Part shown: positions 13,577 to 63,518 of the stretch, piece by piece
Layout: the number at the start of each line of letters is the position of its first letter
Position numbering within the stretch: position 1 is the first letter of the stretch
NCBI RefSeq assembly: GCF_900240285.1
Contig: NZ_OESS01000003.1
Location: 186,001-250,000 of the forward strand
DNA length: 64,000 bases
From: Halobacillus sp. Marseille-P3879
GTDB lineage: Bacteria > Bacillota > Bacilli > Bacillales > Halobacillaceae
Direction of reading: 5' to 3'
The notes under the pieces: model-generated
Seen by the model: the letters and a program-made list of their open reading frames with translations, nothing else
Databases searched by the model: none
What the model was told of the DNA's origin: nothing
Program-made: the position numbers and the translations under genes

Positions 13577-14761
13577 ATGAATCATTCTATTTATCTACCC
13601 AAACAAGATGGAACGACTTATCACTATCAACTAACTCAAACAGAGGCATTGCCCCAACCTTCTAAAAGTACTTTCAAGTCAAGAGTAGCCTATTCTGCAG
13701 CTCATGTAGTGACAAATCCATTTGGCAGCAGCGATCCTGTTAAAGAACCAGCCATTGATTGGGAACAAACAATGAAATATCGTCATTATCTTTGGTCACT
13801 AGGCATGTCGGTAGCTGAAGCCATGGATACAGCGCAGCGGGGGATGGGGTTACAATGGTCTCATGCTAAGGAGCTCATTACCCGTTCAGTGCAAGAAGCA
13901 AAAAGCGTCGGGGGAAATATTGCCAGCGGTGCTGGGACAGACCATCTGACTCCGGATCCACAAATGACGATAGAGGAAGTTGTTAATGCTTATGAGGAAC
14001 AAGTGTCCTACATAGAGGCAGCCGGAAGTAAAGTCATATTAATGGCTAGCCGGGCATTGGCTTCCTGCGCCCGGTCAGCAGAAGATTATGAATACGTATA
14101 CGGCAGAATTTTAGATCAAGTTTCTCAGCCTGTAATTCTCCATTGGTTAGGCGAAATGTTCGATCCTAATCTATCAGGCTATTGGGGAAATGAGGATATA
14201 GACGAAGCGATGGAGGTTTTACTTCGTATTATTGAAAGACATGCAGATAAAATTGAAGGAATTAAAATCTCATTATTAGACGATCAAAAGGAAATAAAAA
14301 TGCGAAGACGCCTCCCGCAAAGTGTAAAGATGTACACGGGGGACGACTTCAATTACCCATCTTTAATCGAAGGAGATGAGCAAGGGTATAGTCATGCCTT
14401 GTTAGGCATTTTTGATCCGATCGCACCGGCTGCAGCCTCTGCTATGCAGGACTTGGATCATGGTGACATTCAAAAATTCAGAGACAAACTTGATCGCACG
14501 GTTCCGCTCGCCCGCCACATCTTTCAAAAGCCTACGTACGCCTACAAAACGGGTGTTGTGTTTTTAGCTTATTTAAATGGTCATCAGCCCCATTTTCGAA
14601 TGATAGCTGGTGCAGAAAGCGCCCGTTCGATTTTACACTTCGCAAAGCTTTTTGAGCTTGCAGATCAGGCTCAAGTTTTGAAAGACCCTGCACGGGCAGT
14701 CGAAAAGATGAAACCAGTTCTTCAATTAGCCGGGGTTCATCAGAGCGAGGTGATTAAATGA
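13577..14761 (+). CDS. DUF993 dihydrodipicolinate-synthase-like (aldolase-fold) protein
   Basis: About 394 residues that I recognise as the DUF993 group within the class-I aldolase/DHDPS-like proteins. Features: AYSAAHVVTNPFG near residue 40, SGAGTDHLTPD, VILMASRALASCARS, PVILHWLGEMFDPNLSGYWG, and IEGIKISLLDDQKEIKMRRRLP, where a Lys sits where DHDPS-type enzymes form a Schiff base. The reaction is unknown; a retro-aldol or related C-C cleavage of an oxidised sugar is plausible. I prefer the ATG at 13577 (AAAGGAG 9 nt upstream) to the one at 13571. The stop overlaps the next start (ATGA), so the genes are translationally coupled. Confidence 0.75.
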   Translation: MNHSIYLPKQDGTTYHYQLTQTEALPQPSKSTFKSRVAYSAAHVVTNPFGSSDPVKEPAIDWEQTMKYRHYLWSLGMSVAEAMDTAQRGMGLQWSHAKELITRSVQEAKSVGGNIASGAGTDHLTPDPQMTIEEVVNAYEEQVSYIEAAGSKVILMASRALASCARSAEDYEYVYGRILDQVSQPVILHWLGEMFDPNLSGYWGNEDIDEAMEVLLRIIERHADKIEGIKISLLDDQKEIKMRRRLPQSVKMYTGDDFNYPSLIEGDEQGYSHALLGIFDPIAPAAASAMQDLDHGDIQKFRDKLDRTVPLARHIFQKPTYAYKTGVVFLAYLNGHQPHFRMIAGAESARSILHFAKLFELADQAQVLKDPARAVEKMKPVLQLAGVHQSEVIK

Positions 14762-15579
14762 GCGAGAAGGTAGATCTTAACCGGTTAAGCTTGAATCAAA
14801 TAACAACCGAAAACTGGTCATTAAAAGAATCCATTGATGGCTGTGTTCGCAACGAAATTCCAACGATATCTGTATGGCGTCATAAACTTGCTGAAGCTGG
14901 TTTAAAGGAAAGTAAAAGAATGATCCAGTCTGCAGGCCTTAGCGTTTCAAGTCTCTGCCGCGGTGGAATGTTTCCAGCTCCAACAGAATTAGAGCGCAGG
15001 AAACGGATTGATGATAATAAAAAAGCGATCGAGGAAGCTGCTGAATTAGGCACGGATGTACTTGTTTTAGTATGTGGTCCAGCTCCCAATAAAAATTTAT
15101 CTGAAAGCCGTAAATGGGTCCAAGCTGGAATTGAGTCTATTATTCCTTTTGCTAAGCAGCACAGTGTGAAACTGGGTATTGAACCGTTACACCCTATGTA
15201 TGCGGCTGACAGGTCAGTCATTACGACACTTGGAGAAGCCAATGTGATGCAAAAGTCGTTGGGCTCCTCTCAGGTTGGGGTCATCGTCGATGTTTTTCAC
15301 GTATGGTGGGACTCGTTTTTATATGAAGAAATTGAACGTGCAAACGGGGCAATATTAGGATTTCATGTGTCTGACTGGAAGGTGCCGCTCCCTGATATCT
15401 TTAAAGGCCGCTCGATGATGGGAGAGGGAGTAATTGATATTCCCCGTATTCGACAGGCTGTAGAAGAAAACGGGTATCACGGTCCGATTGAAGTGGAAAT
15501 TATTAATCAAGACATATGGGACATGCCTGGGGACGAGACATTGCAATGGATGAAAAAGAGTTTTGTTGAACACGTGTAA
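14758..15579 (+). CDS. sugar phosphate isomerase/epimerase-like TIM-barrel protein
   Basis: 273 residues of the xylose-isomerase-like/AP-endonuclease-2 superfamily. Metal-site segments are visible: LGIEPLHPMYAADRS (Glu), VGVIVDVFHVWWD (Asp, His), LGFHVSDWKVP (His) and GPIEVEIINQD (Glu). Members isomerise, epimerise, dehydrate or beta-eliminate sugars, including 3-keto-glycosides. It overlaps the DUF993 gene by 4 nt, and a weak terminator-like hairpin follows it. Together with the Gfo/Idh enzymes it fits an oxidation-then-rearrangement pathway. Exact reaction unknown. Confidence 0.8.
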   Translation: MSEKVDLNRLSLNQITTENWSLKESIDGCVRNEIPTISVWRHKLAEAGLKESKRMIQSAGLSVSSLCRGGMFPAPTELERRKRIDDNKKAIEEAAELGTDVLVLVCGPAPNKNLSESRKWVQAGIESIIPFAKQHSVKLGIEPLHPMYAADRSVITTLGEANVMQKSLGSSQVGVIVDVFHVWWDSFLYEEIERANGAILGFHVSDWKVPLPDIFKGRSMMGEGVIDIPRIRQAVEENGYHGPIEVEIINQDIWDMPGDETLQWMKKSFVEHV

Positions 15580-16761: not shown

Positions 16762-17952
16762 ATGAAAACCACATGCAGCATTGTCCTAATTGGAATAGCG
16801 GGGTATGGTGAAAAATATCTAGAAGCTCTTCAAGACCAAGGTAGACTTTCCTGGGTAAAAGGCGTGGTTGATATTCGCCCAGAACAAAGTAGTTACTTTA
16901 AAACAATTATGGAAAAAGATATCCCTGTCTATTCGTCACTCGAAGATTTTTATCGAGCAGAAACGGCAGACCTGGCCGTTATTTCTACACCGATTCATTT
17001 ACATGCACAACAGGCGGTTATAGCGATGGAAAATGGAAGCCACGTTCTCTGCGAGAAGCCAATGGCCGGCTCTTTGGAGGAAGCAGAACAAATGCGTAAA
17101 GTCCGGGATCGTACGAAACGGTTTTTAGCCGTGGGCTTCAACTGGTCATTTAGCAGATCGGTACAAAAGTTGAAGAAAGATGTCCAGGAAGGTTTATTTG
17201 GTCAGCCTATTTGTGCTCGGACACTTGTTCTATGGCCGAGGGGAGAGGATTATTATCAACGTTCAAGCTGGGCGGGTAAATTACGTGGCCCCAATGGGGA
17301 GCCAATTTTTGATAGCATTGCCAATAATGCAGCTTCTCACTTTCTTCACCATTTATTTTATGTATTAGGAGAAAAGGAAGAGCAAAGTGCTAAAATACAA
17401 TCATTAAACGTAGAGCTGTATTGTGCAAATTCTATCGAAACATTTGACACCTGTGCAGTAATGGCCAGAACTGAAGCAGATGTTGAACTTTTATATTTGG
17501 CCTCTCACGCTATTAATCAGGAAAGTGGACCTGAATTTGAGCTGGAATTTGAAAAAGCCATCATTCGCTACAGTAATGGAGGGAACATAAAAGCTACCTG
17601 GGAGGATGGGAAAGAAAAGAGTTACGGGGACCCGGAGTTTGAACATATGCATAAGCTGGAGGTTTGCATACAGGCAGTATTAGATGGTTCAAGAAATATT
17701 CCCTGTGGAATAGAGGCCTCCTTTTCTCACTTGATAGCCATTAAAAGTATCCATAAAGCAGTGCCGGAAGTACCTGCTTTTCCAATAGAATATGTAAAGA
17801 GAAGTATTGAACCAACGATTACATACGTACCTGGTTTATCCGAGACGCTGAGAAAATGTTACAAAGAGAAAAAAATGCCAAGCGAAATAGACCCGCCCTG
17901 GGCCCAACCAGGAAAAAACGTTAATATTTCTGCTGACACCTATCCCTATTAG
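16762..17952 (+). CDS. Gfo/Idh/MocA-family oxidoreductase (third copy)
   Basis: 396 residues. The N-terminus is a Rossmann fold (IVLIGIAGYGEKYLEAL), and the EKP motif is intact (HVLCEKPMAGSLEEA). Further on, NWSFSRSVQKLKKDVQEGLFGQP and NAASHFLHHLFYVLG match the catalytic domain with its His. The gene starts at the base after the previous stop, with GAGGAGAG just upstream, so it is coupled to it. A strong terminator follows, ending the catabolic operon before the TRAP genes. It probably works on the same sugar or its derivative. Confidence 0.83.
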   Translation: MKTTCSIVLIGIAGYGEKYLEALQDQGRLSWVKGVVDIRPEQSSYFKTIMEKDIPVYSSLEDFYRAETADLAVISTPIHLHAQQAVIAMENGSHVLCEKPMAGSLEEAEQMRKVRDRTKRFLAVGFNWSFSRSVQKLKKDVQEGLFGQPICARTLVLWPRGEDYYQRSSWAGKLRGPNGEPIFDSIANNAASHFLHHLFYVLGEKEEQSAKIQSLNVELYCANSIETFDTCAVMARTEADVELLYLASHAINQESGPEFELEFEKAIIRYSNGGNIKATWEDGKEKSYGDPEFEHMHKLEVCIQAVLDGSRNIPCGIEASFSHLIAIKSIHKAVPEVPAFPIEYVKRSIEPTITYVPGLSETLRKCYKEKKMPSEIDPPWAQPGKNVNISADTYPY

Positions 17953-17961
17953 TGTGATAAA

Positions 17962-17989
17962 TGCCCCTTATTCTCGAAAGGGGTTTTTT
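17962..17989 (+). terminator. intrinsic terminator of the oxidoreductase operon
   Basis: CCCCTT-loop-AAGGGG followed by TTTTTT, 12 nt after the last oxidoreductase stop. Confidence 0.85.
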
Positions 17990-18136
17990 ATTTGTTGTAA
18001 ATCCCTCAATCAAATAGCGGCATTGGTCGGAAATGAATTCTCATGCCTGTTTATAACTATTGAAAAACGAACGATTCCGCTTTATTAAAATGTAAAGCAC
18101 GCAAGTAAGGAGCAAAGCGTCTCTCTTATTTCTGAA

Positions 18137-18157
18137 AATGAGAAAAATTTTCTCATT
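18137..18157 (+). promoter_or_regulatory. perfect palindromic operator before the TRAP genes
   Basis: Arms AATGAGAAAA (18137-18146) and TTTTCTCATT (18148-18157) surround a single A: a perfect 10-1-10 palindrome. It lies about 120 nt before dctP. AraC proteins usually bind direct repeats, so a dimeric repressor of another family (RpiR, GntR or LacI type) is more likely. A cre-like TGAAAGCGCTTAAC lies at 18176-18189. The rest of the 300-base gap shows no gene. Confidence 0.6.
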
Positions 18158-18279
18158 CTAATAAGACATTAAAATTGAAAGCGCTTAACATAGTTAGTGA
18201 AGACAAGCTATGTAAAGCTTTAAGAATAAGAAGGGTTTCAATGCAACTATTAATGAATTCATTTGAAAGGGGTTACATG

Positions 18280-19314
18280 ATGGGGAGAAGGCAGTTATTA
18301 AAAAGTAATTCAGCTGTGTGGGCTTTAATCGTTCTAGTACTGTTGGGGGCGTGCAGTGCAGAAAACGTTTCCTCTACAAGTAGTGAAGTATCCGCTAATG
18401 AAACACAGACTCTGACACTGGCCCATATTCACAATGATGCGAGTCCTGTTTATCAGAGTCTGGAGGAATTTGCAGATAAGGTAGAGGAAAAAACGGATGG
18501 AAGTGTAAAAATCAAAATCTATGGTGAAGGTGTCCTGGGGGGTGAAACCAAAGTCATGGAGCTGGTACAAAACGGAGTGATTGATATGACAAAGGTAAAT
18601 GGTGGAGTAGTGTCAAATTTTGATGAAAAATTCTCTGTATTTACGCTTCCTTACGTTTTTCAAAACAGTGCCCATTTCCGGGAGTTTATGAACACTGATA
18701 CCGTTAGAGATATGTATAAAGGGCTTGAAGAAGCTCAACTGCGAGGAATTACGTATTATGATGCAGGGGCACGCAGTTTTTACACGGCAGATAAAAAAAT
18801 AGAAACGCCTGAAGATCTAAAAGGACTTAAGATTCGGGTGATGAACGATGTTACGTCGATTGAAACAATGGAAAAGCTTGGGGCCACACCAACTCCTATG
18901 GCAGCAACAGAAGTGTATACGAGTTTACAGCAAGGGATCATTGATGGGGCTGAAAGTAGCCCGATTGCTTTAACCGATGCCAATCACGGGGAGGTTGCTA
19001 AACAATTTTCAATTGATGAGCATACAAGAATCCCGGACTTTTTGATTATGAGCGATGATTCTTGGGACAAGTTAAGCGAGCCCGAACAACAGGCGTTGAT
19101 AGAAGCGGGGCAGGAAACCACGAAAGATCATAACGAGCGGTGGGATGAGATGATTGCAGAAAGTAAAGAACAAGCTAAAGAAGAAATGGGAGTAGAGTTT
19201 CATGAACTAGATCAAACCCCATTTCGCAAAAAAGTAGAGCCGTTGATTGAAGAACGTCGAGAAAGCAATCCTGAATTAGATCGGATTCTTGAAGACATTG
19301 AGTTAAAAGAATAG
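18280..19314 (+). CDS. dctP: TRAP transporter solute-binding lipoprotein
   Basis: About 344 residues. A lipoprotein signal ends in LVLLGACS, so the mature protein starts at that Cys and is tethered outside the membrane. The mature part matches DctP-type TRAP receptors: LTLAHIHNDASPVYQSLEEFADKVEEKTDG, VKIKIYGEGVLGGE, and LKGLKIRVMNDVTSIETMEKLGATPTPMAATEVYTSLQQGIIDGAE, in which Arg of IRVM is the usual carboxylate-binding residue. I chose ATG 18280 after GAAAGGGG; ATG 18277 is equally possible. It is followed by dctQ and dctM. The ligand is probably a sugar acid or another carboxylate related to the catabolic genes upstream. Confidence 0.88.
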   Translation: MGRRQLLKSNSAVWALIVLVLLGACSAENVSSTSSEVSANETQTLTLAHIHNDASPVYQSLEEFADKVEEKTDGSVKIKIYGEGVLGGETKVMELVQNGVIDMTKVNGGVVSNFDEKFSVFTLPYVFQNSAHFREFMNTDTVRDMYKGLEEAQLRGITYYDAGARSFYTADKKIETPEDLKGLKIRVMNDVTSIETMEKLGATPTPMAATEVYTSLQQGIIDGAESSPIALTDANHGEVAKQFSIDEHTRIPDFLIMSDDSWDKLSEPEQQALIEAGQETTKDHNERWDEMIAESKEQAKEEMGVEFHELDQTPFRKKVEPLIEERRESNPELDRILEDIELKE

Positions 19315-49549: not shown

Positions 49550-49570
49550 AAATAGTAATGATTACTATTT
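49550..49570 (+). promoter_or_regulatory. Zur box, perfect palindrome
   Basis: AAATAGTAAT, one G, then ATTACTATTT: a perfect 10-1-10 palindrome that differs from the Bacillus Zur consensus (AAATCGTAAT-N-ATTACGATTT) at one position in each arm. It lies upstream of seven or eight co-directional genes of zinc homeostasis, which supports the assignment. Confidence 0.88.
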
Positions 49571-49700
49571 AAGGTTAGGGGGAAATGTAGGAGCGTTAAG
49601 AAATGGAATGACTAACTATAAGTATTCAAGCCAAAAAACGAAACTTTATTTCAGTATTTTCAAGATGTGTGAAGTCCATAGATTCTCAGAGGTGAAAAAA

Positions 49701-50057
49701 TTGAGTGATTATTTAATTAAGTTGCTAACGGACAAGATTGTTGGAACCCTGACGAAAGACCAAAAAGAAATATATAATTACGTGACACAAATGGAGGAGG
49801 ACGTGGCTGAGGAAGTTACTACTGAACAAGATTTTTTGGTCCGACTCAAAAGTGACTCCCCCCATGAACGTGCTGCCAGGCACTTTGATATGACATTTCT
49901 TGAATTAATAAACAAGATTAATCGCATCGATGAAGAAATTGCCAGACAGCTGGAAACGAAATTAGATTTAGTTAGGTGGATAGACTGTACGGAGTTAGTT
50001 CGTTCTAAGGTAAATATAAATAAGAATCAAAAAGTATTCTTTTTGTCACTTCCTTGA
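49701..50057 (+). CDS. unknown protein, first gene of the Zur-controlled island
   Basis: 118 residues from a TTG that has AGAGGTG exactly 6 nt upstream; an in-frame ATG at 49608 has only a distant ribosome site. The sequence is mostly helical and charged (TKDQKEIYNYVTQMEEDVAEEV, SDSPHERAARHFDMTFLELINKINRIDEEIARQLE) and may hold a helix-turn-helix-like core, but I cannot name a family. It has one Cys and no obvious metal motif. Its place 130 nt behind a perfect Zur box suggests it is made under zinc starvation. Confidence 0.6.
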   Translation: MSDYLIKLLTDKIVGTLTKDQKEIYNYVTQMEEDVAEEVTTEQDFLVRLKSDSPHERAARHFDMTFLELINKINRIDEEIARQLETKLDLVRWIDCTELVRSKVNINKNQKVFFLSLP

Positions 50058-50111
50058 TAAATCATTTTATACTCACAAGAAATACCGAATCCTTTTTAAG
50101 GAGGTTGTATC

Positions 50112-50546
50112 ATGTTGGATGATTTGTATCGTCAGGTTGTCATGGACCATTCCAAATACAAACGTAATTATGGAACATTATGTGGTGAAAATAATATAAA
50201 TAAAGTTCACTATAAAAACCCAACTTGCGGAGACATAATGGTTTTATATATACGGGTGGGACCAAAAGGTATCGAGGATTTATCATTCGAAGGAGAAGGA
50301 TGCAGCATTAGTATGGCATCATGCTCAATGATGACAGACCTATTGAAAAATCAAACAGTGGAAGCCTCTCGTAAAAAAAGAGATGCCTTCGAGCGATTGA
50401 TAAGGGAAGGAAAAATAGAGGAGAATATTGATTTAGGGGATGCAGAGTCTCTCCAAGGAGTACACAACCTACGAGCTAGACATAATTGTGCCCTTATGCC
50501 TTGGCAAGCCTTTGACAAATGGTTAAAGGAGCAAGAATATGAATGA
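50112..50546 (+). CDS. SufU-type Fe-S cluster/zinc sulfurtransferase paralogue
   Basis: 144 residues, the normal length for SufU. The zinc ligands are all present: Cys and Asp of NPTCGD, Cys of GEGCSISMASCS, and Cys of RHNCALMPW. In Bacillus SufU is a zinc-dependent partner that accepts sulfur from SufS. The last motif differs from the usual RIKCA, so this is probably a second copy rather than the housekeeping gene, and no sufS, sufB, sufC or sufD is adjacent. AAGGAGGTT precedes the ATG. It overlaps the next GTPase gene by 8 nt, which suggests the GTPase may serve it with metal. Confidence 0.82.
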   Translation: MLDDLYRQVVMDHSKYKRNYGTLCGENNINKVHYKNPTCGDIMVLYIRVGPKGIEDLSFEGEGCSISMASCSMMTDLLKNQTVEASRKKRDAFERLIREGKIEENIDLGDAESLQGVHNLRARHNCALMPWQAFDKWLKEQEYE

Positions 50547-51516
50547 AAATGAGCCAAGAATTCCTGTAACGATTGTAACGGGGTATTTGGGGTCAGGAAA
50601 GACGACGTTTATTAACCATATTCTCAAGCATACGGAAGAGAAAGTTGCAGTCATCGTTAATGAATATGGAGATATAGGAATTGATGATCAGCTGATTGAA
50701 CAAACAGAAGAAGAGATTATTGAAATTAATAGTGGATGTATTTGCTGTAATGTTCGTAAAGACTTAATAGATACGTTATCGATGCTTGCCATCTCAAGAA
50801 AAGAAAAAATGATAGAGTTTGACCGAGTGGTAATAGAGACGACAGGACTCGCTGATCCTGCCCCGGTTATCCAAACGTTCTTGATGGATAAGGAGATGGT
50901 TAATGATTTTCTCATAGATAGTGTGTGCTCCTTGTTGGATGCTAAACATATTTCCAGGCACTTAGAACAAAGGGGTGAGGCACTAAGCCAAATAGCTTTT
51001 GCAGATATAATCCTTATCAACAAAACGGACTTAGTGACAAACGCCCATCTAACCAACTTAATCAAACGATTAGAAAAAATTAACCCTGCAGCTTCCATGT
51101 GTTTATGTGAAGACAGCCAGGTTGATTTGGATAAAGTCTTAGGTATCTACTCTTTTGACTTGCAGGAAAAAGTAGAATTAAACCCTGAATTTTTAAATAA
51201 TAACCATCATTATCATGACGACGAGATCTCATCCTTATCCCTGCAAGAAAAAAGGCCGCTTGATTTACGAAAACTTAATCTCTGGATTTCTTTCCTTGTT
51301 CAAATGCAGGGAGAAAGCTTATACCGTTATAAAGGTGTGCTGAATATAGAGGGCATAGATAAGCGGTTTGTTTTTCAAGGGGTGCATATGCTCTTTGCAG
51401 GAGAGGAAAAAAGCGTCTGGGGAAGCTGTTCACGGGTAAGTGAACTAGTATTTATCGGGAAGAATTTGAATAAAAAAGAACTGGAGCAACAGTTTAGAAG
51501 ATGTGTGTCGGACTAA
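50539..51516 (+). CDS. COG0523 (CobW/ZigA) metallochaperone GTPase 1
   Basis: 325 residues. Walker A is GYLGSGKTT (15-23), the metal-binding CxCC motif is GCICC (66-70), the Walker B region is VVIETTGLADPAP, and NKTD gives guanine specificity. A His-rich loop (NNHHYHDDE, His 223, 224 and 226) lies before the CobW C-terminal domain (YRYKGVLNIEG, FQGVHMLF). It should use GTP to hand zinc to a client, perhaps the SufU paralogue with which it overlaps. It is shorter than the two other COG0523 proteins of this island and belongs to another subgroup. Confidence 0.88.
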   Translation: MNENEPRIPVTIVTGYLGSGKTTFINHILKHTEEKVAVIVNEYGDIGIDDQLIEQTEEEIIEINSGCICCNVRKDLIDTLSMLAISRKEKMIEFDRVVIETTGLADPAPVIQTFLMDKEMVNDFLIDSVCSLLDAKHISRHLEQRGEALSQIAFADIILINKTDLVTNAHLTNLIKRLEKINPAASMCLCEDSQVDLDKVLGIYSFDLQEKVELNPEFLNNNHHYHDDEISSLSLQEKRPLDLRKLNLWISFLVQMQGESLYRYKGVLNIEGIDKRFVFQGVHMLFAGEEKSVWGSCSRVSELVFIGKNLNKKELEQQFRRCVSD

Positions 51517-51535
51517 AAAATTTTTGCTTGATTTT

Positions 51536-51556
51536 AAATAGTAATGATTACGCTTA
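51536..51556 (+). promoter_or_regulatory. second Zur box, imperfect right arm
   Basis: AAATAGTAAT-G-ATTACGCTTA: the left arm equals that of the first box, and the right arm matches the core ATTACG. It lies 18 nt before the flavoprotein start, giving the second half of the island its own control point. Confidence 0.78.
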
Positions 51557-51573
51557 ATATCAGGAGGAGTTCC

Positions 51574-52689
51574 GTGAATAAACATTACGACGTACTCATT
51601 GTTGGAGCAGGAGCTTCTGGAATTGGAGTAGGAATACTGATGAAGCAGATGGGCTGTGATAGTTTTTGGCTTATAGATCGTGGTGAGATAGGAGCCACAT
51701 TTCGTAAATGGCCGAAAGAAATGAGGTTTATAACTCCATCCTTTCCTTCACAAGGATTTGGTCAGACAGACCTTAATGCAGTTGTTCCAAAAACGTCTCC
51801 AGGTTATACGCTGAACGAAGAACATCCAACAGGAGAAGATTATGCAGAGTATTTAGAGCTGCTGGTCAATCACTATGAATTACCTGTGAGGACCGGCGTA
51901 GAAGTGAAAGAAGTAAGAAAACTGGACCGACAATTATTTAAAGTGAACACGGCACAGGAAACCATCACCAGCAGGTTCGTAGTTTGGGCAGCTGGCGAGT
52001 ATCAGTATCCAGACTTAGGGGTTTTCCCGGGTGCAGAACTATGCATTCATAACAGCCAAATTCATTCCTTTGAAAAAATGAAAGAAGATGATTATCTAGT
52101 CATAGGGGGTTATGAAAGCGGGCTTGATGCTGTGTACCAGCTGAATAAAATTCAAAAAAAGTCTCGTCTTATAGCTAAAACACCTACCTGGAAGATAGAT
52201 AGCAGTGATCCAAGTGTTATTTTATCACCCTATACCTTTAGTCGAATGAAGGAAGCGATACCTGAAGGGAGGATTAAAGTTTATGAGCAGCAAATAGTAA
52301 ACTCTGTGAGAAAGGAAAAGGCTCATTACTATGTGAATACATTAGAAGGTCATCAATTTATCTCTCATACACCGCCTATATTAGCGACGGGCTTCAAGGG
52401 CAGTACATCTATCATTTCAAATCTTTTCGAATTTGGGGAGCATGGAAAACCTTTAGTAAATGATAAGGATGAATCTACGAAATGTGAAGGTTTGTTCCTG
52501 TGTGGTCCTGAATTGCGGCATGACAGTCATGTTTTTTGTTATATATACAAGTTTAGACAGCGGTTTCCTGTTCTTGCTAAGGAGATTGGGTCTCGTCTTA
52601 ATTTGAATTTAGAGATCCTTGACCTATACAGGAAGGAAAACTTCTATTTAGATGATCTTTCAGAGTGTGGAGAGCGCTGTGAATGTTGA
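51574..52689 (+). CDS. CzcO-like FAD/NAD(P)-dependent oxidoreductase with Cys-rich tail
   Basis: 371 residues. An FAD-binding Rossmann motif opens the protein (YDVLIVGAGASGIGVGILM) and a second dinucleotide site is DYLVIGGYESGLDAVYQL. IDRGEIGATFRKWPKEMRF resembles flavoproteins grouped as CzcO, noted near cation transporters. The last residues, SECGERCEC, form an unusual three-Cys tail that could bind zinc. GTG 51574 follows CAGGAGGAGTTCC; a longer frame would overlap the Zur box. It lies directly before a FeoB-like transporter gene. The substrate is unknown; reduction of a metal complex or disulfide is possible. Confidence 0.75.
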   Translation: MNKHYDVLIVGAGASGIGVGILMKQMGCDSFWLIDRGEIGATFRKWPKEMRFITPSFPSQGFGQTDLNAVVPKTSPGYTLNEEHPTGEDYAEYLELLVNHYELPVRTGVEVKEVRKLDRQLFKVNTAQETITSRFVVWAAGEYQYPDLGVFPGAELCIHNSQIHSFEKMKEDDYLVIGGYESGLDAVYQLNKIQKKSRLIAKTPTWKIDSSDPSVILSPYTFSRMKEAIPEGRIKVYEQQIVNSVRKEKAHYYVNTLEGHQFISHTPPILATGFKGSTSIISNLFEFGEHGKPLVNDKDESTKCEGLFLCGPELRHDSHVFCYIYKFRQRFPVLAKEIGSRLNLNLEILDLYRKENFYLDDLSECGERCEC

Positions 52690-52699
52690 GGGAAGCAGT

Positions 52700-54352
52700 G
52701 TGAAAACTGTAATTAGCTTAGCGGGACTTGAGTCTGTAGGTAAGTCTGCTCTCTTCCGGCATTTGACGGGTCATCAAACAGGAATAGAAACCAATGTTAA
52801 AGGATCAACTGTCGTTCTCTCACGTGGAGAATGGCAAAGAGATTCCAGCGTAAAAGTAGTTGATACGCCAGGGATGCGTTCTAAAGATGATAGCCTTACT
52901 ACCCAAATGGCCCTGGATGAAACTAAGTCCTTGGAAGAGATCATTTTAGTTGTAAAAGCGCCTCATTTAAAAAATGAACTTCTCCTATTAGAAGATCAGC
53001 TGGATTTAAGAGGGAAGAAAGTTATCGTCGTGGCGACTCATAAAGATAGATATGACCCCTGTGACGAAGAGAAACTTTTTATTAAAGAATTGTTAAACGT
53101 TCCAGTCATTTGGTGTAATACTCGTTCAATGAACCAGGCGGAGCAGGAGGACCTGGGGGAAGCTATTCGGGGGCCCTCCTCACGTTGGGAACTTAATCGT
53201 CATATACTTAGTTTTCTTCCAGACCTAAACGAAGAAAGAAGCACAAAATGGCTGGAACAAATACTTTTCAAAAACATTGCTGGGCCTTTGCTAGCTTTGT
53301 TTCTGGTTATATGTATGTTTGGGGTTCCAGTATTTATCTCCTATTCGTTTTCTAATTACCTTCAGTCTGTATCTGAAAAGTTATTTGTAGAACCATTAAA
53401 TCAAAACCTTATGAATCTGCCGGAATTTATCCAGGAGTTATTAATCGGTAATTATGGAGCATTAACCTTGGGATTGTATTCATTCATATGGGCGTTTCCT
53501 GTAGTTTTTCTTGTCGGATTTAGTGTAGCAATCACAGAAGAAACGGGTCTCCAGGAGCATATAACACATGCCCTAAACCCATGGCTTATGAAAATCGGTT
53601 TAACGGGAAGAGACTTGATCCCTGTTATAACTGGATTTGGCTGTAATGTTATAGCGGTTATGCAAAGCCGAAGCTGCAGCAGCTGTACAAGAAGTAATTG
53701 TATTTCTATGATTTCATTCGGTTCTGCTTGCAGTTATCAGATCGGCGCGTCCTTATCATTATTTGGGTCAGCTGGACAGCCATTATTGTTTCTGCCCTAC
53801 ATTTTCGTTTTGTTCATCGTAGGGGCCATCCATACAAGGGTGTGGGAGAAGAGTTCTTTGCCACTGAATACGGTATCTTCTCTTCCTTACTTGCAACCTG
53901 TTACATGGAGAGGGACAGTATTTCGTCTAAAAGGTATTCTTAAACAATTTATAGCCCAGGCTATGCCGATTTTCATAACGATTTGTTTGACCGCTTCAGT
54001 TCTTAACTACTTGGAAATAATGAAAGGACTGGCCTATCTTATTTCCCCTTTATTAACACTGTTATCATTACCTGCTGATGTTGCACCCGGTGTGATTTTC
54101 TCCATCTTCAGGAAAGATGGAATGATGGTATTGAATGAGGGGGAAGGATCTCTTCTTCAAAACTTGGAAATTTGGCAGTTGTTTATAACGGTATATCTGG
54201 CTTCCACCTTGTCTTCTTGTCTAGTAACTTTATTTTCAATCTATAAAGAAATGGGAGGAACTCACGCCTTCAAAGTATTAGGGAAACAAATGATTACTTC
54301 TATCATAAGCACATTCCTTTTAACAATGATTTTAACTGCTTTTTTTAAGTAG
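52700..54352 (+). CDS. FeoB-like GTPase-permease, candidate zinc transporter
   Basis: 551 residues. The N-terminal G domain has G1 GLESVGKSAL, G3 VDTPGM and a G4-like ATHKD, shorter than FeoB and without the usual long GDI region. From about residue 190 come eight or more membrane helices with two gate (nucleoside-recognition) repeats. The FeoB-type GFGCNV Cys is kept (about 315), followed by an unusual cluster SRSCSSCTRSNC (Cys 326, 329, 334) and SAC (344). GTG 52700 has GAGGGA 6 nt upstream. No feoA is present, and the gene lies in a Zur-controlled operon, so zinc rather than ferrous iron may be the cargo. That is inference. Confidence 0.8.
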   Translation: MKTVISLAGLESVGKSALFRHLTGHQTGIETNVKGSTVVLSRGEWQRDSSVKVVDTPGMRSKDDSLTTQMALDETKSLEEIILVVKAPHLKNELLLLEDQLDLRGKKVIVVATHKDRYDPCDEEKLFIKELLNVPVIWCNTRSMNQAEQEDLGEAIRGPSSRWELNRHILSFLPDLNEERSTKWLEQILFKNIAGPLLALFLVICMFGVPVFISYSFSNYLQSVSEKLFVEPLNQNLMNLPEFIQELLIGNYGALTLGLYSFIWAFPVVFLVGFSVAITEETGLQEHITHALNPWLMKIGLTGRDLIPVITGFGCNVIAVMQSRSCSSCTRSNCISMISFGSACSYQIGASLSLFGSAGQPLLFLPYIFVLFIVGAIHTRVWEKSSLPLNTVSSLPYLQPVTWRGTVFRLKGILKQFIAQAMPIFITICLTASVLNYLEIMKGLAYLISPLLTLLSLPADVAPGVIFSIFRKDGMMVLNEGEGSLLQNLEIWQLFITVYLASTLSSCLVTLFSIYKEMGGTHAFKVLGKQMITSIISTFLLTMILTAFFK

Positions 54353-54408
54353 CTATGTTTAACGTAGACCTAATGTTTCCTAAGTATACAAATTGAGGAG
54401 GATAAACC

Positions 54409-55608
54409 ATGAGCGATAAAATACCTGTCACAGTATTAAGCGGTTATTTAGGTTCAGGGAAAACTACTCTGCTCAATCACATACTAAACAATCGTGATGG
54501 GCAAAGAGTCGCTGTTATTGTTAATGATATGAGTGAGATTAACATCGATGTAGATTTAATAGAGAAGGGAGGGCATTTTTCAAGAACGGAAGAGAATTTA
54601 GTGGAGATGTCCAACGGCTGCATTTGCTGTACATTGAGAGAAGACTTACTGGTTGAAGTCGAAAGAATTGCAAAGGCTGGTAACATTGACTGCATTGTCA
54701 TCGAGTCTACGGGGATTAGTGAGCCTGTACCAGTCGCCCAGACATTCTCTTACATCGATGAAGAGCTGGGTATTGACCTTACTCAATATTGTCGGCTCGA
54801 TACGATGGTTACTGTCGTTGATGCCTTTCGGTTTTGGCATGATTACGAATCTGGAGATCGACTACTTGATCGAAAGCAAGCCATTGGGGAGGAGGATGAC
54901 CGGAACCTTGCCGATTTACTTATCGATCAAATAGAATTTTGTAATGTTCTCTTACTAAATAAATGTGACTTGGTAACGGCAGAGCAGTTGGATTCATTAA
55001 CGAATGTGATTCAAAGCTTGCAGCCTGAAGCCGAAATTATTCGTACAACATTCGGGGTGGTTGAGCCAGAAAAAATCTTGAACAGTTACTCCTTTAACTT
55101 TGAGACGGCTAGTCAATCGGCTGGATGGCTTAAAGAACTAATGGCAGGTCCCAGCGATCACACACCGGAAACCGAGGAGTATGATATTCACTCTTTTGTA
55201 TATAGACGAAGACTTCCCTTTCACTCTCAACGTTTCTACAATTGGATCAGCCAGATGCCTGCTTCAATCGTACGTGCTAAAGGCATTGCATGGTGTGCGA
55301 CAAGAAATCAATTAGCACTTCTACTATCCCAAGCAGGACCCTCAGTCTCCATTGAACCTGTCTCATATTGGGTAGCTTCACTTCCAAAAGTACAAAAAGA
55401 TCGTACGATTAAGCAAAATCCTGAACTATTAAACGATTGGGATGTAGAATTCGGGGACCGAATGATTAATCTTGTATTTATAGGGGTTCATCTTGAGAAG
55501 GAAACCATAATTAAAGAACTCGATCAATGTTTATTAACACCTGAGGAAATGGACAACGAATGGTCGGAGATGCAAGATCCGTTCACCTGGGAGGTCGCTG
55601 TTCAATAA
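54409..55608 (+). CDS. COG0523 metallochaperone GTPase 2 (YciC/ZigA type)
   Basis: 399 residues, the length of Bacillus YciC. It has [48 protein letters not shown] and LLNKCDLV. The C-terminal domain contains [19 protein letters not shown] and [15 protein letters not shown]. It is a zinc-starvation GTPase expected to deliver zinc to essential enzymes. AGGAGGATAAACC precedes the ATG. It closely resembles the third COG0523 protein two genes downstream, so they are recent or conserved duplicates around the dCTP deaminase gene. Confidence 0.9.
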
Positions 55609-55628
55609 GAGAAAAGAAGGTGTAGGAA

Positions 55629-56180
55629 ATGATAATGTCAAGTCAAACCATTCTTAATAATTTGGAGAAAAAAGAGCTGATTATTGATCCATTAACCCGT
55701 TCTCATATCCAGCCGGCTTCTGTAGATCTAACGCTTGGAAATCATTTTATATCATTGGAAGAACATAGCACACGCACACTTTCAATGAGGGAAAAAGCTT
55801 ACTATCGCGACATTTATATAGGAAATCGAGAAACTATTATTATTCCACCTCACTCCTTTTTGCTTGCCACAACAAAAGAGTGGATAAAACTGCCCAATTA
55901 TCTTACAGCTTTCGTAGAAGGCAGAAGTTCTATCGGTAGAATGGGGATGTTTGTTCAAAATGCAGGATGGGTGGACCCGGGATTTGAAGGATGCCTTACT
56001 CTTGAATTATATAATTCAAACCGTTCCCCTATTGAATTGGTGGAGGGATGGAGAATCTGTCAATTGGTTATCGCTGAAATGGATCTGCCCACAAAGCGAT
56101 ATAACGGTAAATATTCAGGACAATCGAGTACAACTGCCAGTGCTGCTCATAAGGATACGGAGAATCAGGGTCCTACATAG
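55629..56180 (+). CDS. dcd: dCTP deaminase
   Basis: 183 residues. The trimeric dUTPase-like fold shows HIQPASVDLTLGNHF, FVEGRSSIGRMGMFVQNAGWVDPGFEGCLTLELYN with the catalytic Glu, and GWRICQLVIAEM. It deaminates dCTP to dUTP without zinc. Bacillus normally makes dUMP partly through the zinc enzyme dCMP deaminase, so a dcd gene between two COG0523 genes in a Zur-linked operon fits a zinc-sparing bypass. It starts 20 nt after the GTPase gene. The Ser-rich tail (GQSSTTASAAHKD) is not conserved in the family as far as I know. Confidence 0.9.
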   Translation: MIMSSQTILNNLEKKELIIDPLTRSHIQPASVDLTLGNHFISLEEHSTRTLSMREKAYYRDIYIGNRETIIIPPHSFLLATTKEWIKLPNYLTAFVEGRSSIGRMGMFVQNAGWVDPGFEGCLTLELYNSNRSPIELVEGWRICQLVIAEMDLPTKRYNGKYSGQSSTTASAAHKDTENQGPT

Positions 56181-56234
56181 AAAGGAAAGGTGATAGGAGT
56201 AACGAAAACATTGTGAAAAAAGGAGGAATTAAAA

Positions 56235-57416
56235 TTGCCAAGTAAAGTCCCGGTCACCGTACTGAGTGGGTATTTAGGAGCGGGAAAAACTACGTTATTG
56301 AATCATTTGCTCCATAATAAAGAGGATCGTAAAATAGCTGTGATCGTCAATGATATGAGTGAAGTAAACATTGATGCTGATATGGTCAAAAAAGGCGGCT
56401 TCAGCCGGACCGAAGAAAAGTTAGTCGAATTACAAAATGGGTGTATTTGCTGTACCCTTAGAGATGACTTAATTAAAGAGGTAGAGAAGCTCTCGATGCT
56501 CGATATTGATTATATTGTGGTTGAATCGACGGGGATATCCGAACCGATTCCAGTAGCACAAAGCTTCACCTATGAAGATGAAGAGCTAGGAATCAACCTT
56601 GGTGAGCACTGTATATTGGATACGATGGTTACAGTTGTAGACGCAAGTCGTTTTTGGGAAGATTATGGATCAGGAGAGACTTTACTAGATCGATATCAAG
56701 GAGCCGACGAAAAGGATAATAGAGATGTTATTGACCTTTTAATTGACCAGGTGGAATTCTCTAATGTAATTCTTTTAAATAAAGTTGATATGATTGGCAC
56801 TATAGAGAAACAACAATTAATAGCTGTACTTGAGCAACTAAATCCTGGGGCCCAAATAATCGAAACAATCTATTGCGAAGTTCCGCTCGGAGCTGTAATG
56901 AATACAGGGTTATTTGATTTTGAAAAAGCAAGCCAGGGGGCTGGATGGATTAAAGAATTAAATGAAGAACACGTTCCTGAAAGTGAGGAGTACGGCATAG
57001 GTTCCTTTGTTTATCGTAGGAAAAGGCCGTTCCATCCTGAGCGTTGGATGGAATGGTTAGAAGGTTGGCCGGTCGGTATTGTTCGAGCCAAAGGTTTCTT
57101 TTGGCTGGCTTCAAGAAATGAGATGTGTGGTTTACTATCCCAGGCTGGGACATCTCTTGCCATTCAAGGTGCAGGAAAATGGATGGCAGCTTATCCAAAA
57201 CAGGAGCGAATGGAATATTTGAGAGAAGATCCAGATTTAGCAAAGCGCTGGGACGATGAGTTCGGAGATCGTATGACTGAATTAGTGTTTATCGGAATGG
57301 AGCTGAATAAAGAGAACGTTATCAGGGGATTGGATCAATGCTTGTTAAAAGATGACGAAATGGAAATGGACTGGAGTAAATTCGTTGATCCATTGCCAGC
57401 ATTTACTGAATTTTAA
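56235..57416 (+). CDS. COG0523 metallochaperone GTPase 3 (YciC/ZigA type)
   Basis: 393 residues with [48 protein letters not shown] and LLNKVDM. The C-terminal half mirrors GTPase 2 ([42 protein letters not shown]). The start is TTG with AAAGGAGG 9 nt upstream. It ends the zinc island. Two near-identical layouts in one operon suggest different clients, one possibly linked to the nucleotide pathway. Confidence 0.9.
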
Positions 57417-63203: not shown

Positions 63204-63311
63204 AAGTTGAGATCACAGCTATCCAGAGAGAGCAGGACTCATAATACACACTTGTCCATACTCTTTCTACTCGCACTTAACACCCCCTATCCTCGTAGGT
63301 ATTGATGTTCG

Positions 63312-63490
63312 TTGAGACAGGCAGGTCTCCTGGCTTATGATCAACGCTCCCTGGATCCTTCCCACTCTCACTACTGGCGAGAACAGTGGCATTCCAGTTC
63401 GCTCCCAAATACAGTTGCGGGACAGCATCGGATTATCACCGATTTCCCTTTTAAGCAGATAAACGCGAATACCGTTTATCTGTACCTGAA
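63312..63490 (-). ncRNA. cobalamin riboswitch
   Basis: On the minus strand the conserved boxes appear in order: GGTAC, a 10-bp hairpin (CAGATAAACG...CGTTTATCTG), TTAAAAGGGAA, GGTG-ATAATCC, GCTGTCCCGCAACTGT, GCCACTG, GTGGGAAGG, and the B12 box region AAGCCAGGAGACCTGCC (63320-63336). It is an AdoCbl-class-like aptamer. With the terminator at 63174-63203 it should turn off the downstream genes when cobalamin is plentiful. The downstream genes are a small unknown protein and prpC-prpD-prpB. Confidence 0.95.
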
Positions 63491-63518
63491 TCAAAAACGT
63501 ATTCAGTTTGACTTTTTC

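Follow-up and report, generated by a model that had tools for sequence, protein, structure and literature searches.

The 64-kb window analyzed here, which is the whole stretch of DNA under study (G000:C7:186001-250000), belongs to the 4.17-Mb, nine-contig genome of Halobacillus sp. Marseille-P3879, a halophilic relative of Bacillus, and contains an island of eight genes accompanied by two putative boxes for the zinc regulator Zur. A preliminary description had placed eight codirectional genes behind a perfect Zur palindrome, with a second box inside the island. Eight open reading frames (ORFs), all on the plus strand and here called g1 to g8, occupy positions 49701 to 57416 in the ORF list of the window behind an exact palindrome, box 1, and a second, imperfect box was found at 51536 to 51556. 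The features are as follows.

49550..49570, no strand: Zur box 1, an exact palindrome, AAATAGTAATGATTACTATTT; a box also precedes g1 in four of four family relatives
49701..50057, plus strand: g1, 118 amino acids, no Pfam family, probable TTG start, S14-linked Zur family
50112..50546, plus strand: g2, SufU paralogue (SufU2), zinc ligands kept
50539..51516, plus strand: g3, COG0523 GTPase a, 325 amino acids, 8-base overlap with g2
51536..51556, no strand: Zur box 2, an imperfect palindrome that would head the second unit; a box also precedes g4 in four of four family relatives
51574..52689, plus strand: g4, Pyr_redox_3 flavoprotein, 371 amino acids
52666..52686, plus strand: codons of the C-terminal CGERCEC tail of g4 (C-x3-C-x-C)
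52700..54352, plus strand: g5, FeoB-like GTPase-permease, 550 amino acids counted from GTG
53642..53731, plus strand: cysteine region of g5, C315 to C344, with added CSSCTRSNC at 53675-53701
54409..55608, plus strand: g6, ZagA/ZigA-type COG0523 GTPase b
55629..56180, plus strand: g7, dCTP deaminase, probably forming deoxyuridine monophosphate (dUMP)
56235..57416, plus strand: g8, ZagA/ZigA-type COG0523 GTPase c

Domain searches recovered the families named in the preliminary description, namely a SufU type, three COG0523 proteins, a flavoprotein, a FeoB-like permease, and a dCTP deaminase. Pfam and curated profiles matched g2 to NifU_N and SufU, g3, g6, and g8 to both cobW and CobW_C, g4 to Pyr_redox_3, g5 to FeoB_N and Gate, and g7 to DCD. 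That description did not mention that the flavoprotein and the permease are paired, that each carries a cysteine motif, or that g1 belongs to an S14-linked family. The start of g5 is uncertain, as an earlier start is possible and could overlap g4.

Ten sites in the genome matched AAATNGTAATNATTACNATTT with at most two mismatches, three of them with at most one, against chance expectations of about 0.9 and 0, respectively, in a first-order Markov simulation using the composition of the window. The sites comprised the two island boxes, one site at znuCB-zur, two at znuA, two at a znuA-zinT fusion gene, two at an S14 gene encoding 89 amino acids, and one PerR-like site near a P-type ATPase gene. 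Box 2 leaves three half-site positions of the palindrome unmatched. Looser patterns did not separate from their controls: AAATNGTAATNATTACNATTT at up to three mismatches gave 20 genome sites, compared with 14 when the pattern was reversed, and AGTAATNATTAC, the core by itself, gave 9, compared with 10 for its control. For other genomes, a box was defined as at most one mismatch in GTAATNATTAC together with at least six A/T among eight flank positions, a rule that returned no box across 86 kb of family genomes (24 control loci) and four in the window, two being those of the island. Three Fur-family proteins are encoded in the genome, and the one in the znuC-znuB operon was taken as Zur by context. 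Because sites of this kind also accompany znuCB-zur, znuA, the znuA-zinT fusion, and the S14 gene, we conclude that the motif shared by the island and the zinc genes is very probably the Zur operator, a putative one at which Zur binding and derepression are predicted for both boxes. The earlier statement that ZnuABC is missing holds for the island but not for the genome, which carries znuC-znuB-zur-znuA and the znuA-zinT fusion elsewhere.

The surroundings of those zinc genes hold further boxed genes. A P-type ATPase gene with a PerR-like box lies beside znu-zur (L043:3472-5445), and an ArsP_1-type permease gene and a DUF1980 gene form a pair divergent from znuC across Zur-type boxes (L043:7225-9134). 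ZnuA-ZinT fusion genes stand behind Zur-type boxes both in this genome (L046:9779-11362) and in a relative (L047:5891-7534).

The flavoprotein and permease genes were compared across 30 distinct loci (L126 was dropped as a duplicate of L056) and 24 loci found at the level of the class, which after three repeats make 51 distinct loci. By ORF coordinates, the FeoB-like gene lay directly downstream of the flavoprotein gene and on the same strand in 30 of 30 and 24 of 24 loci, that is, in all 51. A stricter adjacency rule based on hidden Markov model envelopes accepted 45 of the 51; the six misses, L241, L242, L245, L247, L248 (divergent permease N terminus), and L252 (flavoprotein split over two frames), are all adjacent by ORF coordinates. 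The FeoB-like profile was found in 18 of 397 genomes of the order and 12 of 135 genera (E up to 1e-60), the flavoprotein profile was found in 24 of 398 genomes of the class and 11 of 146 genera, and among 44 genomes of the family the flavoprotein and the FeoB-like protein (the latter searched at 70% identity or more) occur in the same five. Moreover, a Zur-type box lay no more than 400 bp upstream at 39 of the 51 flavoprotein loci, compared with 884 of 10,200 windows drawn at random from these zinc-rich loci and 0 of 4,800 from control loci.

Both proteins carry conserved cysteines. The C-x3-C-x-C tail of the flavoprotein is present in 49 of 51 loci, the exceptions being L061 (early stop) and L252 (split). 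Permease cysteines, counted from the GxGC motif, stand at offsets 3, 14, 22, and 32 in 30 of 30 loci and at offset 17 in 29 of 30, and CxxC....C was seen in 29 of the 30 loci checked. Among the class loci, the cysteine motif was found in 20 of the 23 besides the island's own; in L233, L237, and L252, it was missing from a permease that is cut or broken in the stretch or unmatched by the pattern, and that of L237 is split over two frames. Relative to the FeoB of L063, the only canonical one compared, the stretch VEQPKERLM...SARLP after GCNV is replaced in the g5 family by the cysteine cluster; of the five cysteine offsets, that FeoB has just the first and last. The g5 protein scored above the cut-offs for PF02421 and PF07670 (GTPase and Gate domains); against FeoB profile TIGR00437 it reached 103.2 bits, below the cut-off of 315.65, and a plain iron FeoB was demoted to a rival explanation. 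Seven of the 30 permeases, 378 to 404 amino acids long, have no GTPase part. The g4 protein scored 83 bits against YpdA profile TIGR04018, under the cut-off of 339.9, and was not accepted as a member of that family. We infer both the substrate of the permease, zinc, and the direction of transport.

Conservation of the island was examined in family relatives, defined as the four genomes whose FeoB-like locus was fetched (L047, L048, L049, and L050). The preliminary description had proposed a search for the same gene set in other Bacillaceae. All eight genes were recovered, in order, in L049 and L050, and seven of the eight, likewise in order, in L047 and L048, which lack a g8 orthologue. Two Oceanobacillus loci (L051 and L052) contain g4 to g8 with no g1 to g3 in the fetched flanks. 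Conversely, genomes G010, G013, G025, and G031 contain g1-SufU2-g3, a box, and g6, and neither a FeoB-like gene (search at 70% identity or more) nor the flavoprotein was found in them. Because g1-SufU2-g3 occurs without the pair, and g4-g8 without g1-g3 in the fetched flanks, box 2 marks a real seam between two separable units, g1-SufU2-COG0523a and flavoprotein-FeoB-like-ZagA-DCD-ZagA, and because box 2 sits between g3 and g4, the island likely comprises two transcription units. The single integrated system or operon proposed earlier is accordingly replaced by a modular set that splits at box 2; the Zur control and zinc starvation theme of that proposal fit the conservation data.

Additional genes accompany the clusters of relatives. 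An S14 gene follows dcd in L048, L049, and L050. In L049, a cysteinyl-tRNA synthetase (CysRS) gene with a Zur-type box is inserted in the island between g1 and g2 (13589-15118); a zinc-free CysRS was considered and rejected, as what we take to be the usual zinc-ligand motifs are present. Also in L049 (15725-19184), a box divergent from g1 precedes genes for a [2Fe-2S] protein weakly resembling thioredoxin, a protein with a metallo-beta-lactamase fold, and an apparent siderophore-type ATP-binding cassette transporter, a cluster that could possibly serve zinc metallophore uptake. Histidine-rich proteins of 113 to 118 amino acids are encoded at the edges of Zur clusters at L050:818-1159 (no Pfam match for its product), L056:3202-3558, and L061:22-363. 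In Gottfriedia, a weak carbonic-anhydrase-like protein (L058:8099-8722) and a porphobilinogen synthase gene (17802-18785) lie near Zur-type boxes.

The g7 protein scored 175.3 bits against dCTP deaminase profile TIGR02274, above the cut-off of 92.8, and by sequence its closest PDB chains were 4xjc (full-length, E 1e-59) and then 1ogh. Relatives of this DCD occur in 57 of 397 genomes of the order and 33 of 135 genera (E up to 1e-10). At the 30 best loci, a box lay within 1.5 kb at 15, the island's own locus not being among these, as its boxes are 4 to 6 kb upstream. At 20 of the 29 other loci, either a box or a gene of the zinc guild (ZagA, FolE2, S14, Zur, SufU2, or COG0523) lay within the same distance, guild adjacency having no control of its own. 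The genome also encodes a PF00383 protein with HAE and PCxxC zinc motifs, as in dCMP deaminase. The zinc-free nucleotide enzyme of the preliminary description fits these conservation data, and we conclude that DCD is plausibly a zinc-free bypass, though not a Zur gene everywhere.

The g2 protein scored 142.8 bits against SufU profile TIGR01994 (cut-off, 92.5), and a canonical SufU is also encoded in the genome. SufU2 was found in 9 of 44 family genomes, with at least two boxes within 1.5 kb at 9 of 9 loci; no box was found at the one canonical SufU locus scanned. Island-type rows of the alignment read R[HY].CALM and canonical rows RIKCATL. The columns that we presume to hold the zinc ligands are kept in 19 of 19 island-type rows and in 7 canonical rows, some of these 26 rows being closely related. 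Retention of the ligands rules out a zinc-free SufU2, and with it SufU2 itself as a zinc-free bypass. An extra cysteine was discarded as a mark of SufU2, being present in only 11 of the 19 rows. The SufU2 protein is thus a zinc protein, one that the neighboring GTPase g3 may metallate. All three COG0523 proteins have the GCICC motif, and against ZigA profile NF038288 they scored 172.8 (g3), 517.1 (g6), and 517.6 (g8) bits, all under the cut-off of 600; the clients named for these GTPases here are presumed ones.

Homologues of g1 start at the position equivalent to TTG 49701, and g1 therefore most likely starts there and not at ATG 49608. Neither g1 nor four further members match a Pfam family. 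The g1 profile was found in 97 of 397 genomes and 31 of 135 genera (E up to 1e-4), and among the 30 best loci, own included, a box lay within about 1.5 kb at 29 and an S14 gene at 21. In L222, the genes for S14, type-B L31, and g1 come after a single box. Visual inspection of L060 had suggested a g1 relative there, but tblastn did not recover it, and it was not counted. Because the g1 family sits with zinc-free S14, we conclude that g1 probably encodes a ribosome-side factor. A Zur-boxed S14 gene elsewhere in the genome (L045:9645-11109) is followed by a second, different flavoprotein gene, and L197 and L208 encode proteins similar to this flavoprotein close to g1 or S14.

Taking together the boxes, gene set, conservation, pairing, and motifs, each directly visible in the DNA, we favor with moderate confidence a reading of the island as a two-unit zinc-starvation cluster repressed by Zur, in which a FeoB-derived Zn(II) permease is paired with a flavin adenine dinucleotide (FAD) protein. 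When zinc falls, Zur would leave boxes 1 and 2. The first unit would then supply g1, probably acting at the ribosome, a second SufU, and the GTPase whose gene overlaps it; the g3 GTPase would probably load zinc into SufU2, which could sustain iron-sulfur assembly. The second unit would supply the flavoprotein-permease pair, two ZagA-type metallochaperones, and the dCTP deaminase, which could form dUMP without zinc, bypass the zinc-dependent dCMP deaminase, and so sustain the supply of dUMP. The most likely reading of the pair is that a FeoB fold has been retooled by the cysteine cluster to move Zn(II), such that the pair would acquire or mobilize zinc. The FAD protein may keep permease thiols reduced, take zinc on its C-x3-C-x-C tail for handover to the GTPases, or both. 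The GTPases would in turn hand zinc to chosen clients, and g1 would act with zinc-free ribosomes.

Several observations weigh against this interpretation. At 12 of the 51 flavoprotein loci, the 400 bp upstream contain no box; eight of these loci have one farther upstream in the stretch or cluster, and L235, L237, L240, and L243 have none in the fetched 1.5-kb flank. ZnuABC is present in the genome, and therefore the pair is not the sole importer. Zinc sparing explains neither SufU2 nor the boxed CysRS of L049, as both keep their zinc ligands, and 9 of the 29 DCD loci are not linked to zinc (one of them, L150, is truncated at the end of its contig). Finally, none of the promoter-like sites listed lay near box 1 or box 2, and the region had fewer such sites than its shuffles did (15 versus 22.4).

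One alternative is that the pair imports Fe(II) or Mn(II) in the manner of FeoB and feeds enzymes that replace zinc enzymes in starvation. The FeoB_N and Gate domains of g5 and its similarity to FeoB are consistent with such import, as are the FolE2 genes of sister clusters, FolE2-type substitutes being users of other metals. However, g5 scores far under the FeoB cut-off (103 versus 316), a cysteine cluster retained at 29 to 30 of 30 loci takes the place of the canonical stretch, and thiolates favor zinc, and we regard import of iron or manganese as unlikely. We consider it very unlikely that the pair is instead a thiol-redox or zinc-mobilizing system and no importer, in which the flavoprotein repairs disulfides left by zinc loss and the cargo of the permease is a small thiol or some other solute. 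The distant relationship of the flavoprotein to the bacillithiol disulfide reductase YpdA (83 bits) and the absence of the GTPase part from 7 of 30 permeases point toward it, but the YpdA cut-off of 339.9 bits is unmet, and Gate and FeoB-like permeases transport metals or nucleosides.

The genes could also share regulation only, having drifted together under Zur with no joint mechanism. In favor of this, modules come and go between genomes, and 9 of 29 DCD loci are not zinc linked. However, none of the 51 distinct loci separates the flavoprotein gene from the permease gene, g2 overlaps g3, and four relatives preserve the gene order, making mere coregulation distinctly unlikely. That the boxes belong to Fur or PerR, and the island to an iron or peroxide regulon, seems extremely unlikely: the genome does encode three Fur-family proteins, and Fur, PerR, and Zur boxes are alike, but seven of the eight sites outside the island with at most two mismatches are at zinc genes.

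Island GC content is 39.6%, that of the flanks is 41.3 and 42.9%, and foreign origin was rejected because the difference is not telling. The sole Rfam match in the window at the gathering threshold is a cobalamin riboswitch at 63303-63504 on the minus strand.

Among known proteins, FeoB (TIGR00437) has the GTPase domain, Gate domains, and GCNV motif in common with g5, which differs in scoring below the cut-off, in having three extra cysteines where FeoB has VEQPKERLM, in its flavoprotein partner, and in having relatives (7 of 30) that lack the GTPase. The best match of g4 was PDB entry 3d1c (full-length, E 2e-75), a flavin-containing putative monooxygenase with a similar cysteine tail; it is a structure of unknown function, and we know of no link between it and zinc. 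The closest chain to g7, 4xjc, is presumably the dCTP deaminase of Bacillus halodurans, an enzyme reportedly described as a DCD:DUT that stands beside a dCMP deaminase. What is proposed here beyond that study is a zinc reason for having both dUMP routes, for which no paper was found in the open-access full-text library. Both g6 and g8 align full-length to NF038288, and unlike ZagA/ZigA alone, the island has two ZagA-type copies and a third, shorter COG0523 type.

The Zur regulon of Bacillus subtilis comprises zinT, rpmEB, yciC, znuACB, folE2, and rpsNB, with S14* and L31* as Zur-controlled zinc-free substitutes, according to the accessible part of one source (PMC5007448). The island has Zur control, a COG0523 chaperone, zinc-free substitutes, and uptake in common with that regulon and differs in gene set and two-box layout. 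In Bacillus anthracis, predicted Zur boxes stand upstream of znu-zur and yciC as well as of a COG0523 and a permease gene, according to the part of the source available (PMC6336718), and boxes at COG0523 and permease genes are the likeness to the island. Within the available portions of the texts, the terms FeoB, SufU, deaminase, and flavoprotein are absent from a review of Zur regulons (PMC6103462), NifU, SufU, dCTP, and FeoB are absent from PMC6336718, and FeoB, NifU, deaminase, and flavoprotein are absent from PMC2770081. No description of the island gene set was found in the open-access full-text library, and one may exist elsewhere. We conclude that the regulation and several members of the island are those of known Zur regulons. 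More tentatively, and with somewhat less than even confidence, we propose that the pair is an unrecognized zinc acquisition system of Bacilli, in which a cysteine-altered, FeoB-derived permease has an obligate FAD partner that reduces its thiols and passes tail zinc to COG0523 proteins, and that the g1 family is an unrecognized Zur-controlled ribosome factor.

If true, the bacterial zinc-starvation response would include a second class of metal permease, one with a redox partner, and the FeoB fold would have been adapted to another metal. The deaminase would account for the retention of two dUMP routes in some bacilli, one dependent on zinc and the other not. A SufU paralogue coupled to its own COG0523 GTPase would offer a direct test case for COG0523 clients, and the g1 family, which has no Pfam name, would be a candidate partner of zinc-free ribosomes.

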